Assembly (NCBI GenBank): GCA_017965425.1
Contig: JAGCPY010000033.1
Span: 1-64,000, forward strand
DNA: 64,000 nucleotides
Source: Bacteroidaceae bacterium
Lineage (GTDB): Bacteria > Bacteroidota > Bacteroidia > Bacteroidales > Bacteroidaceae
Reading direction: 5' to 3'
Shown here: piece after piece, positions 29,259-58,532 of the stretch
How the letters are laid out: each line of letters begins with the position of its first letter
Numbering within the stretch: the first letter of the stretch is position 1
Position numbers and translations under genes: made by a program
The notes under the pieces: model-generated
Database searches by the model: none
Told to the model about the DNA's origin: nothing
Seen by the model: only the letters and a program-made list of their open reading frames with translations

Positions 29259-29313
29259 AAATCATGTGAAGAATTTGCATAAGTCTTCCTCGACGCACAC
29301 ACCTGTTTTCAAT

Positions 29314-29650
29314 AAAAAAAGTCTCAATCCCTCACCTCTTCTTCTTACTGGCTGTCTTACAGTCGTTTGCTGGTGAGGGATTGGTGAGGAATAGGTGAGG
29401 GATGGTGAGGGATGGTGAATGGACTCTATAATGACGTCCACCGCCATCCCCTTATGTGGGCCGTAAAAAAGCCACCATTTGGCGCTACTTGAGGGCTGCG
29501 ATGGTTCTGTCATCATCTTATGACCAATCAGGGTTCAATGTTCAAACTAAATCCCTCACCATCCCTCACCTATTCCTCACCAATCCCTCACCAGCAAACG
29601 ACTGTAAGACAGCCAGTAAGAAGAAGAGGTGAGGGATTGAAACTTTTTTG
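29314..29650. repeat. Composite element A: long inverted repeat of CCCTCACC-N35-GGTGAGGG modules
   Basis: Arms 29324-29413 and 29551-29640 are perfectly complementary over 90 bp; with one mismatch they extend through poly-A/poly-T ends (29314-29413, 29551-29650). Each arm has CCCTCACC, exactly 35 nt, then GGTGAGGG followed by three more GGTGAGG(G) copies at 10-11 bp spacing. The 137-bp centre (29414-29550) has no gene. The divergent neighbours (DUF4236 and the thiamin operon) each have their own promoter outside the element. Confidence 0.9.
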
Positions 29651-29696
29651 TGGAAAAAGAACAGAGTAGTGAGTGGTGAATGATAAACGAAGGTGG

Positions 29697-29750
29697 AATG
29701 TGTACACGCTCAGGCAGGAATGTGTACACGCTCAGGCAAGAATGTGTACA
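29697..29750. repeat. 22-bp array with GTGTACAC cores (element A)
   Basis: GTGTACAC at 29700-29707 and 29722-29729 and GTGTACAT at 29744-29751 are spaced exactly 22 bp. The first two units are identical (GTGTACACGCTCAGGCA then R/GGAAT). It lies 50 bp from the inverted repeat of element A. The spacing equals two helical turns. Confidence 0.85.
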
Positions 29751-29777
29751 TGTTACGTGCTGTTTTTCCGCACAAAT

Positions 29778-29809: not shown

Positions 29810-29817
29810 CGGCTGTT

Positions 29818-29901
29818 TTATCAAGGGGTGCTCGTTGGTGTGGCGGGCTGAGAACAGACCCTTCAGACCTGATGCGGGTAGTGCCGACGTAGGGATGATA
29901 A
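29818..29901 (+). promoter_or_regulatory. TPP riboswitch (THI element)
   Basis: The conserved core is readable: GGGGTGC (29825-29831), GGCTGAGAA (29846-29854), GACCCTTCAGACCTGATGCGG and GGTAGTGCCGACGTAGGGA. P1 is closed by TTATCA (29818-29823) with TGATAA (29896-29901). A hairpin GCAGGC/GCCTGC at 29918-29934, 44 nt before the start codon, is a candidate expression platform. Thiamin diphosphate binding would shut off the receptor-PnuT-kinase operon. Confidence 0.93.
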
Positions 29902-29978
29902 GTGGAATCTTCTTGTGGCAGGCAGCGAGCCTGCACCCCTTTATTGTTTAACTAATAACAAATAAAGGAAAAAAGACA

Positions 29979-38270: not shown

Positions 38271-38329
38271 GGTTCTGCGTCAATGAGGAGCAATTACAGC
38301 ACCTCAACAGACGCAGAACCTTGTTTTTT
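38271..38329 (+). terminator. Terminator after the BY-kinase gene
   Basis: GGTTCTGCGTC (38271-38281) pairs with GACGCAGAACC (38310-38320), with a nested TGAGG/CCTCA stem in the loop, followed by TTGTTTTTT. Confidence 0.85.
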
Positions 38330-38331
38330 GT

Positions 38332-38594
38332 AAAAAAAGTCTCAATCCCTCACCTGTGGGGCTATTACGCTGTGAATAAACTGGTTACTGGTGAGGGATT
38401 GGTGAGGGAAAGGTGAGGGATGGTGAGGGTTTTCTGATAAATATGAGTGAAGTAATAATAACTCATTCTCAATTGTTTAAGTCTGTCCCCTCACCATCCC
38501 TCACCTTTCTCTCACCATTCCCTCACCATTCCCTCACCTGCAATTCACTCAGATACAAGGCTATAACGGGTAAGGTGAGGGATTGAGGTTTTTT
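38332..38594. repeat. Composite element B: facing CCCTCACC-N35-GGTGAGGG modules with different N35
   Basis: The left module has a poly-A start, CCCTCACC, N35 (38355-38389) and four GGTGAGGG copies. The right module (38487-38594) is its mirror image, ending in GGTGAGGGATTGAGG and a T run. The two N35 segments are the same length but not complementary to each other, unlike in elements A and D. No gene is present in the 38243-38744 gap. Confidence 0.85.
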
Positions 38595-38656
38595 GTGGTA
38601 AAACAGGGGTGTGGGTATCTGGGTAAGTATAAAAGCTAAACCATACGTTTGGGAAA

Positions 38657-38708
38657 GTGTGTACCTTACAGACAAAACGTGTACACGTTCTGCATGGAAG
38701 GTGTACAC
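38657..38708. repeat. 22-bp array with GTGTACAC cores (element B)
   Basis: Units start at 38657 (GTGTGTAC), 38679 (GTGTACAC) and 38701 (GTGTACAC), exactly 22 bp apart, 63 bp from the inverted repeat of element B and just past the end of the convergent argF' gene. Confidence 0.85.
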
Positions 38709-38744
38709 GTTGACAGTTGATGGATAAGACGGGACGTGCGGTGT

Positions 38745-49256: not shown

Positions 49257-49454
49257 CATAAAATAACTGACGAATCGTTATTATCTGTGAGAGAATCCAT
49301 CAATTTAGTAGGTTTTTGCTTCACTTCTCCCTTTTAGGGATAGGAATAGGACAAAATATCATCAGTTATTCGTGATTCGGCTGTTCGGGTATGGGTCAAG
49401 TACGCTCCGATTCTTTCTTGAACACTCCCGACCTGAGTTGCTGAAAGCGTGAAG

Positions 49455-49506
49455 GCGTACACGGTTTGCCTGGAAGGTGTGTACCTTCTTCGAGTAAGGT
49501 GTACAC
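49455..49506. repeat. 22-bp array with GTGTACAC cores (element C)
   Basis: Units start at 49455 (GCGTACAC), 49477 (GTGTGTAC) and 49499 (GTGTACAC), each 22 bp apart, with GGAAGG and CCTTC flanks as in element B and D units. Confidence 0.85.
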
Positions 49507-49572
49507 CTTCCAAAGACTTTGTCCAAACATGCGTTCCTGACTCCTCCTTACAGATGGCTTTTTGGTAAAAAA

Positions 49573-49641
49573 TCCCTCATTCCCTCACCTTTTTCGTCAT
49601 GTGCTTGCTATTCAATGGTTTATGGGTGAGGGATTGAGGGA
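49573..49641. repeat. Composite element C: single CCCTCACC-N35-GGTGAGGG module
   Basis: 17-bp arms (49573-49589 and 49625-49641, one mismatch) enclose exactly 35 nt (49590-49624). Only one module is present, without a facing partner or the longer GGTGAGGG array, so this is a half element. It lies 66 bp from the 22-bp array. Confidence 0.85.
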
Positions 49642-49668
49642 TTATGAATGAAAAAACAATGGGGTGAG

Positions 49669-58015: not shown

Positions 58016-58091
58016 GTGAACGTGGAAAATATGGAGCACGTTCGTAAGCGGTGGAAGGTGTACACGTTCCGGGAAGAAGGTGTGCACGTTC
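58016..58091. repeat. GTGTACAC-type array (element D)
   Basis: GTGTACACGTTC at 58058 and GTGTGCACGTTC at 58080 are 22 bp apart. Two decayed units precede them (GGAGCACGTTC near 58033, 26 bp before, and GTGAACGT at 58016). GGAAG flanks recur as in the other arrays. Confidence 0.75.
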
Positions 58092-58162
58092 ATGGAGGAA
58101 GATGCATATTTTTTCAATTATGCATTTTCACTCGTGCTACCCTATGTTTTTTCGCCAAAAAG

Positions 58163-58493
58163 TCTCAATCCCTCACCTTTCGGGATATCGCATTGTCTAT
58201 GAGCGGTTTGCAGGTGAGGGATTGGTGAGGGATTGGTGAGGGGAGGTGAGGGATTGCTCTTTCAATCGTGGTCGGTGAGGGAAATGGAAAAACGTGAGGC
58301 TTAGTGAATGGCTTAATGACAATTGAAAATCAGATGTTTGTGATGTTGATGATATAGCCCTTCATAAGGACCAAGTCTGATTTGGCTGCCATCCATAACC
58401 AATCCCTCACCTTCCCTCACCAATCCCTCACCAATCCCTCACCTGCAAACCGCTCATAGACAATGCGATGTCCCGAAAGGTGAGGGATTGAGA
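58163..58493. repeat. Composite element D: long inverted repeat of CCCTCACC-N35-GGTGAGGG modules
   Basis: Arms 58163-58255 and 58401-58493 are complementary with about two differences. N35 lies at 58178-58212 and 58444-58478; these pair with one mismatch (58187 region GATATCGC versus GACATCGC). Each arm has four GGTGAGGG copies at 9-12 bp spacing. It occupies the gap between argR and the kinase cluster; no gene lies in 57848-58782. Confidence 0.9.
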
Positions 58494-58512
58494 ATTTTTT
58501 AACAGAACAAGA

Positions 58513-58532
58513 GTGTGCGCGCGTGCGCGCGT
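58513..58532. other. 20-bp alternating purine-pyrimidine run
   Basis: GTGTGCGCGCGTGCGCGCGT alternates purine and pyrimidine without a break, a sequence that can adopt left-handed DNA under supercoiling. It lies just outside element D. Confidence 0.6.

Follow-up and report, generated by a model that had tools for sequence, protein, structure and literature searches.

A stretch of 64,000 nt (64 kb) from the genome of a rumen Bacteroidaceae bacterium, referred to here as the window, contains inverted copies of an intergenic repeat in which two short arms, CCCTCACC and GGTGAGGG, enclose 35 nt of largely variable sequence (N35), and it raises the question of why a spacer should hold its length while most of its content is left to vary. 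Counted on both strands, CCCTCACC is present 32 times in the window, where 1.8 copies would be expected, and none of 100 shuffled versions reaches that count. A preliminary description had reported five modules of the design CCCTCACC-N35-GGTGAGGG at four loci; the four loci stand, but the modules number seven (at 29329, 29585, 38347, 38531, 49582, 58170, and 58436; Table 1).

Table 1. Repeat elements and adjoining palindrome arrays, in window coordinates
Feature	Position	Strand	Description
Locus A left half-element	29296..29413	+	T-tract/A-tract, GTCTCAAT, CCCTCACC, N35 29337-29371, GGTGAGGG, 11-nt array
IHF-like 25-bp core in locus A left N35	29345..29369	+	Predicted HU/IHF-family site (candidate for binding)
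Locus A right half-element	29551..29668	-	Near-perfect inverted copy of left half; N35 29593-29627
Locus B left half-element	38314..38431	+	N35 38355-38389
Locus B right half-element	38488..38614	-	N35 38539-38573, unrelated to left N35
Locus C solo module	49568..49646	+	One CCCTCACC-N35-GGTGAGGG; outer ATCCCTCATT / ATTGAGGGAT
Locus D left half-element	58137..58256	+	N35 58178-58212
Locus D right half-element	58400..58519	-	N35 58444-58478; inverted, 97% identical to left N35
GTGTACAC palindrome array, 22-nt phase	29694..29755	.	Adjoins locus A
GTGTACAC palindrome array, 22-nt phase	38659..38712	.	Adjoins locus B
GTGTACAC palindrome array, 22/44-nt phase	49452..49514	.	Adjoins locus C
GTGTACAC palindrome array, 22-nt phase	58055..58090	.	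Adjoins locus D

The arms of locus A, described earlier as perfectly complementary over 90 bp, measure 99 nt at 99% complementarity (29315-29413 against 29551-29649), and those of locus D measure 100 nt at 97% (58157-58256 against 58400-58499). The stem of locus B is 41 nt long and 95% complementary, and its two N35s are 40% identical overall and 15% identical at the free positions. Beside all four loci lies a second dispersed repeat, a palindrome of 16 bp, GAASGTGTACACSTTC, arrayed with a 22-nt period; over 444 kb, 13 of its 16 clusters are found at most 185 bp from a GGTGAGGG element. Just past locus A, a TPP riboswitch (29814-29912) is located upstream of a TonB-dependent receptor gene. At the elements themselves, no Rfam match reached gathering level.

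Across the host genome (G000; 3.73 Mb in 96 contigs), 147 matches were obtained to the two arms separated by 25 to 45 nt, against 0 for a reversed-pattern control, and the spacer is N35 at every one of the 50 places listed out of these 147. Spacings and modules were counted in a contiguous sample of 464 kb (the window together with twenty 20-kb stretches) to which seven small loci were added. When distances of 5 to 79 nt are scanned there, exact arms stand 35 (n=39), 46 (30), 57 (41), 67 (31), 68 (2), or 78 nt (2) apart and at no other spacing, the longer values being 35 plus the 10/11-nt steps of the inner GGTGAGGG array, which bears out the earlier claim that N35 is constant in length. Allowing for up to two arm mismatches and spacers of 25 to 45 nt, we find 56 N35 modules (39, 8, and 9 with zero, one, and two mismatches, respectively), copies without the arms or the spacing falling outside this count as modules were gathered by both. 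Spacers of other lengths are absent with exact arms and occur twice with one mismatch (both N43); with two mismatches, 21 are N43 and 13 are spread over other lengths. We read the N43 cases as the outer KYCTCAAT probably serving as a degenerate extra arm.

A matrix scan of the 464 kb gave 44 half-elements, arranged as 19 facing pairs, with the terminal inverted repeats by which MITEs are recognised, and six solo halves; in every facing pair the left half is on the plus and the right half on the minus strand. Taking the first arm as reference, conservation of the half-element begins near -32 and ends near +85 (~117 nt). From the outside inwards, it consists of a pyrimidine-rich stretch, a T-tract, five free bases, an A-tract, and KYCTCAAT, and then of CCCTCACC, N35, and GGTGAGGG, followed by further GGTGAGGG copies stepped by 11, 11, and 10 nt. 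The interior of a facing pair is free sequence, with mosaics of other repeats in some of the long copies. In shuffled sequence, matrix scores stay far below zero. No half-element among the 44 is wholly contained in a predicted gene, and two element spans overlap predicted gene ends by 4 and 55 nt. Relative to predicted genes, 25 elements are placed as eight convergent, 12 tandem (seven minus-minus, five plus-plus), and five divergent, compared with 17, 44, and 24, respectively, among 85 intergenic regions of at least 200 nt. Convergent sites are at most mildly enriched, which makes a pure terminator role unlikely. The repeat is an intergenic, non-coding element present in well over a hundred copies in one rumen bacterium.

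Oriented from the outer to the inner end, the 56 modules (52 of them distinct) yield the N35 consensus TTTT-N4-TAW-N4-YTG-N5-nAR-N4-TTR-YA. Most landmarks named in the preliminary description are strong, with A10 in 52, T17 in 55, G18 in 51, A25 in 56, T31 in 52, and T32 in 56 of the 56 modules, whereas T1 (42) and T11 (27) are weak. Between modules, the 13 free positions are 27.6% identical against a random expectation of 27.0%, and the nine constrained positions 77.8%. Identity at the random level implies that the copies are old enough for saturation, and with the length and about nine positions holding nonetheless, the suspicion that constant length with variable content marks a maintained structure is supported. 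No excess of base pairing was detected within N35 in any column pair or helix register (i+j from 36 to 47), and the compensatory changes that the preliminary description had suggested looking for are likewise absent over these column pairs and registers. Mutual-information z-scores of up to 5.4 are seen in a few column pairs (21-33, 1-2, 11-13, 23-24), which were not taken as a stem because they are neighbours or lack a surplus of standard pairs from which one could form. Inspection by eye also spoke against translation of N35, the constrained positions having no three-base period. N35 is constrained as DNA rather than as RNA.

Within N35 lies a dyad-symmetric core of 25 bp, TAW-N4-YTG-N5-nAR-N4-TTR. 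The dyad centre is at N35 position 21 (r 0.65, with 0.36 for the next centre; 0.42% of 5000 column permutations reach 0.65), and the motif.AR....WTR, which was picked after the data had been seen, is present on both halves in 39 of the 52 distinct modules, where shuffles average 0.012. The core half-site nARNNNNTTR corresponds to the right part of the IHF consensus WATCARNNNNTTR, and the core steps Y16/T17 and A25/R26 are 9 bp apart. For IHF itself, PMC8421141 gives this consensus together with two intercalations 9 bp apart, a 35-bp site, and a bend of ~160 degrees. By prediction, then, the core looks like an IHF-type site. The agreement between N35 and the 35-bp IHF footprint is not probative, since the centre of the dyad is displaced by 3 bp from that of the arms and spacers of N36, N38, N40, and N49/50 are seen in other species.

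The H' site of phage lambda reads AAA-AGCA-TTG-CTTAT-CAA-TTTG-TTG in the predicted core frame. With the G000 matrix it ranks 31 of 39,952 positions in a 20-kb lambda stretch (30 with a G000+G110 matrix, 19 with the symmetrised matrix); among the 30 positions scoring above it with the G000 matrix, we know of no established IHF site. The three other IHF-consensus matches in this stretch score 6.2, 2.5, and -0.6, so that only H' of the four lambda matches fits the core on both sides. Without an arm requirement the core matrix is a loose motif, with 50 hits in 200 kb of the host genome and 35 in shuffled sequence; with the arms required, there are 28 hits against 1 in the host genome and 11 against 1 in G110, a relative from the same genus.

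Four matches to PF00216 are found in the host genome. One is an ordinary HU, and another is a protein of 92 aa with RGFGSF, as in IHF-beta, whose best solved relative is an engineered single-chain IHF (2iif/2iie, E 7.5e-16) and which in the alignment has Tyr at the position of the IHF-beta Glu before RGFGSF. The fourth match sits in a 405-residue open frame, and the NCBIfam scan took in the three small proteins, which score under the cut-offs of both the HU and the IHF models and are therefore called HU/IHF-family members here, not IHF proper. The evidence supports a predicted recognition of the symmetric core, as duplex, by an HU/IHF-type dimer.

The two halves of an element behave differently in their arms and in their N35s. 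The two N35s fall short of 65% identity in 19 of 24 pairs; the other five pairs reach at least 66%, four of them more than 90% (loci A and D included). The covariation test was carried out on the 19 pairs, those with an N35 identity of 65% or more having been dropped. In these, outer-segment identity is 0.936 within and 0.884 between elements (0 of 2000 permutations), and of the 19 pairs, 18 have matching halves at position 64, 14 at -7, and 14 at 54, where 10.4, 9.1, and 10.1 would be expected, respectively. The free N35 positions agree between halves at 0.186 against 0.267 by chance (0.15% of permutations, with the filter equal). Arms thus tend to stay mutually complementary and N35s do not. 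Any of three processes could bring this about: palindrome correction within the arms, a selective advantage of pairing, or selection acting against long perfect palindromes.

Related repeats were found in other genomes. G110, read de novo over 200 kb, has a repeat with arms GCTTCCACT ... AGTGGAGGC (arm word GTGGAGGC), the inner arm being repeated at 11 nt in three of five clusters; its whole genome holds 17 matches (12 distinct) with N49 (8) or N50 (9). The host core aligns with the 12 distinct copies at one offset (r 0.71, others at most 0.25; 0 of 3000 permutations). Twelve further relatives, each sampled over 18.8 to 200 kb, were then scanned for the core and tested for inverted arms around it; of these, only G250 stood out. 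Across its genome, the arm pattern CCTACAT ... ATGTAGG (N40) is matched 50 times when nested matches are counted, which corresponds to 30 places. The core is recovered there at a single offset, both over all 30 places (r 0.48, next 0.13-0.14; 0.3% of permutations) and over 17 distinct ones (r 0.51; 0.2%), and with orientation-free symmetrised scoring r rises to 0.68 (distinct 0.71; 0.07% and 0.03% of permutations, respectively); a relaxed core frame is fitted by 25 of the 30 places. Seven of the 12 relatives gave no core hit with arms in the sampled sequence, and G227, G238, G279, and G267 gave one core-and-arm hit each, with shuffles likewise giving 0-1. One similar place in G272, chosen by eye, did not pass the arm test. 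G218 and G220 carry N36 versions with GGTGAGGC arms (five modules), to which the core could be matched by eye only when reversed and with C at position 25. G121 and G135, which belong to another genus, have N38 and N40 versions; in N40, only the right half, CAANGGGTTA, is a good fit. Where such repeats occur, the arms differ between species and the core frame is retained; in most of the relatives, each sampled over a small part of its genome, none was seen.

Scans for the module itself matched 4 of 151 genomes of the family and 12 of 139 of the genus, the host being included in both; G218 and G220 are among the latter with their related repeats, and the nine remaining genomes have single hits that by eye are chance or unclear. 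In a phylum sample 13 of 395 genomes matched, again with the host, the others being unrelated by eye. Viral contigs gave 0 matches to a 21-base module pattern, and a 22-base pattern matched genome contigs in three stretches (own-genome records possibly left out), all on JAGCYV010000072.1 of the yak rumen MAG RGIG10247. Over the 2.4 kb compared this contig is 100% identical to G000:C63, and all six repeat matches of the MAG are on it; for these reasons we take it to be from the window's species, mis-binned. The same contig has a long open frame (L087 5300-6700) with a Y1-like HIH motif, DHIVMPEHIHCLMVV, that is absent from the own-genome Pfam matches.

Arrays of ~22-nt period were also read by eye in relatives, and in G110 additionally seen as a 22-nt spacing peak. 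They are built from other palindromes (CGACCGGTCG in G110, ATGTATATAC in G220, GTATCACCAGGTGATAC in G250, and GAGTTACATAACTC in G272), some of them beside argF or a core element, so that the period is common and the sequence species-specific. In G218 (L053 1630-1900), repeats of the TTCATGGTTAATGG type and of GGTAATTCGTGAAAAGCAATTTAT form a tandem array that adjoins the element.

On balance, we think that the repeats probably serve as DNA-architecture elements scattered between genes, which an HU/IHF-family protein bends and whose arms are specific to the species. A homodimer of such a protein would read the 25-bp core of each half as duplex DNA and, if it acts as the IHF structure suggests, would kink the DNA at two steps 9 bp apart into a U-turn. 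This would bring the inverted CCCTCACC/GGTGAGGG arms and the helically phased GGTGAGGG copies together, where a putative arm-binding protein may bridge them. By analogy with BIMEs, the outcome would most likely be insulation of neighbouring transcription units or supercoils. That an IHF-like site is kept while arms differ between species suggests a chromosome-folding element of unfamiliar type. More doubtful is the extension to a genus-wide chromosome-architecture system in rumen Bacteroidales, in which a conserved HU/IHF-family dimer reads the core wherever a species has such repeats, a fast-evolving arm-binder drives the arms, and the 22-nt arrays join as insulators or loop anchors; the arms (GGTGAGGG, GTGGAGGC, ATGTAGG) would then change in step genome-wide, tracking the arm-binder.

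It is unlikely that we are dealing with foldback or MITE-like mobile elements, whose arms and phased repeats would be transposase sites and whose core would be the bend of a transpososome, as at the ends of some transposons, with the autonomous copy elsewhere or lost. The conserved inverted halves are consistent with this, as is a subfamily of composite long copies that are 83-90% identical over pieces of 158-239 nt in several places, indicating that some of the spread is recent. So is the situation at locus B, the argF/Wzz-kinase locus, where G220 keeps the gene order but lacks a CCCTCACC element, its orthologous site next to argF holding just a terminator-like hairpin and an array of 22-nt period; in the other 11 relatives, by reading, the gene order is not kept on the element side. 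However, 24 pairs yielded no convincing target-site duplication (of 540 offset/length tests, the best gave z 3.9, at 35% identity), copies in decay would not be expected to preserve arms, spacing, and core once their free positions are saturated, and no transposase gene was seen between facing halves in the parts read by eye. The idea of a REPIN-like element moved by a transposase is not supported, given the same lack of duplications and the surroundings of the nearest Y1 gene. This gene (C21:58693-59031 in the region G000:C21:57193-60531), one of two PF01797 (Y1 transposase) matches in the host genome, has different palindromes, GCCCTGAAAGGGC/CCCAGGGC, on both sides and one GGTGAGGG element ~375 bp away, and the second match has no exact arm within 3.2 kb. 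The GCCCTGAAAGGGC and CCCAGGGC..CCCTGGG palindromes are probably the RAYT-like Y1 gene's own REP family; pieces of them also occur within long GGTGAGGG elements.

We regard as quite improbable a function at the RNA level, with the long inverted repeat transcribed as a hairpin and serving as a bidirectional terminator or mRNA stabiliser. It would agree with the A-tract and T-tract at the outer ends and with the co-variation of the repeat parts of the two halves, and the complementarity of these parts is what survives of the large RNA hairpin proposed earlier, pairing within N35 having shown no excess. Local palindrome correction would, however, likewise yield matched arms, and against an RNA-level role also stand the lack of pairing covariation in N35, the less-than-chance likeness of paired N35s at free positions, the five of 25 elements between divergent genes, and a separate terminator-like hairpin that, by eye, adjoins the element at locus B. 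The elements between divergent genes are also why termination as the sole function was dropped. A tyrosine-recombinase (Xer/dif-like) core, with two inverted half-sites around a 5-6 bp centre, would have the dyad symmetry and a suitable size, yet it is highly implausible: recombinase arms are conserved throughout, whereas the four-base blocks within the core half-sites are near random, and at least a hundred active inverted sites would, by reasoning, scramble the chromosome. Among the three guesses of the preliminary description (hairpin, REPIN-like element, and protein-binding array), the last is favoured as a prediction, in line with the HU/IHF-bent architecture element that we prefer.

The REP/BIME repeats of bacteria and the associated IHF sites were described decades ago, and no function has yet been agreed on for them. 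The claim that no described family has the present architecture holds for the exact element, for which no describing paper was recognised in the literature searched (where most subscription journals fall outside), but not for its plan, on which BIME-1/RIB is also built. In BIME-1, IHF interacts with the stretch that separates a pair of opposed REPs (PMC2817692). As described there, the BIME-1/RIB (RIP) elements of E. coli are alike in having opposed repeats that flank an IHF-binding stretch (here a predicted one), in being intergenic, and in their high copy number. They differ in that BIME-1 arms are REPs, palindromes of 20-40 nt, while the arms here are non-palindromic 8-nt words at 11-nt steps; in that most elements here have a facing pair of IHF-like sites; in that the arms here vary between species while the core stays; and in that the present elements, with their convergent, tandem, and divergent positions, are not confined to gene 3' ends. 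Having neither REP arms nor a 3'-end location, they are not filed under BIME-1/RIB, despite a likeness in how they would work.

REPIN/RAYT systems share the paired inverted short repeats dispersed between genes, but no RAYT tied to the GGTGAGGG elements was found among the two PF01797 matches. The Correia element of Neisseria is a small MITE-like repeat with an IHF site. Some small bacterial MITE-like sequences hold an IHF site according to the review PMC2229807; the elements here differ from these by two cores per element, saturated free positions, and no target duplications found. The BrickBuilt MITE of Porphyromonas gingivalis, as described in PMC4596501, is also an intergenic Bacteroidales element with a tandem repeat within an inverted-repeat structure, but it has a 23-nt tandem unit, IS5-family-like ends, and 19 copies, in contrast to the 11-nt phasing and IHF-like core seen here. 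PINSR of Prevotella intermedia (PMC4755523) is likewise an intergenic repeat specific to a species group, with 177 copies in one strain and 184 in another, but as described it measures 188 bp and lacks terminal inverted repeats. What the present repeat adds is a BIME-like plan outside Proteobacteria whose two parts are separable, the core being constant and the arms replaced genome-wide, so that a comparison of species can show which protein constrains which part.
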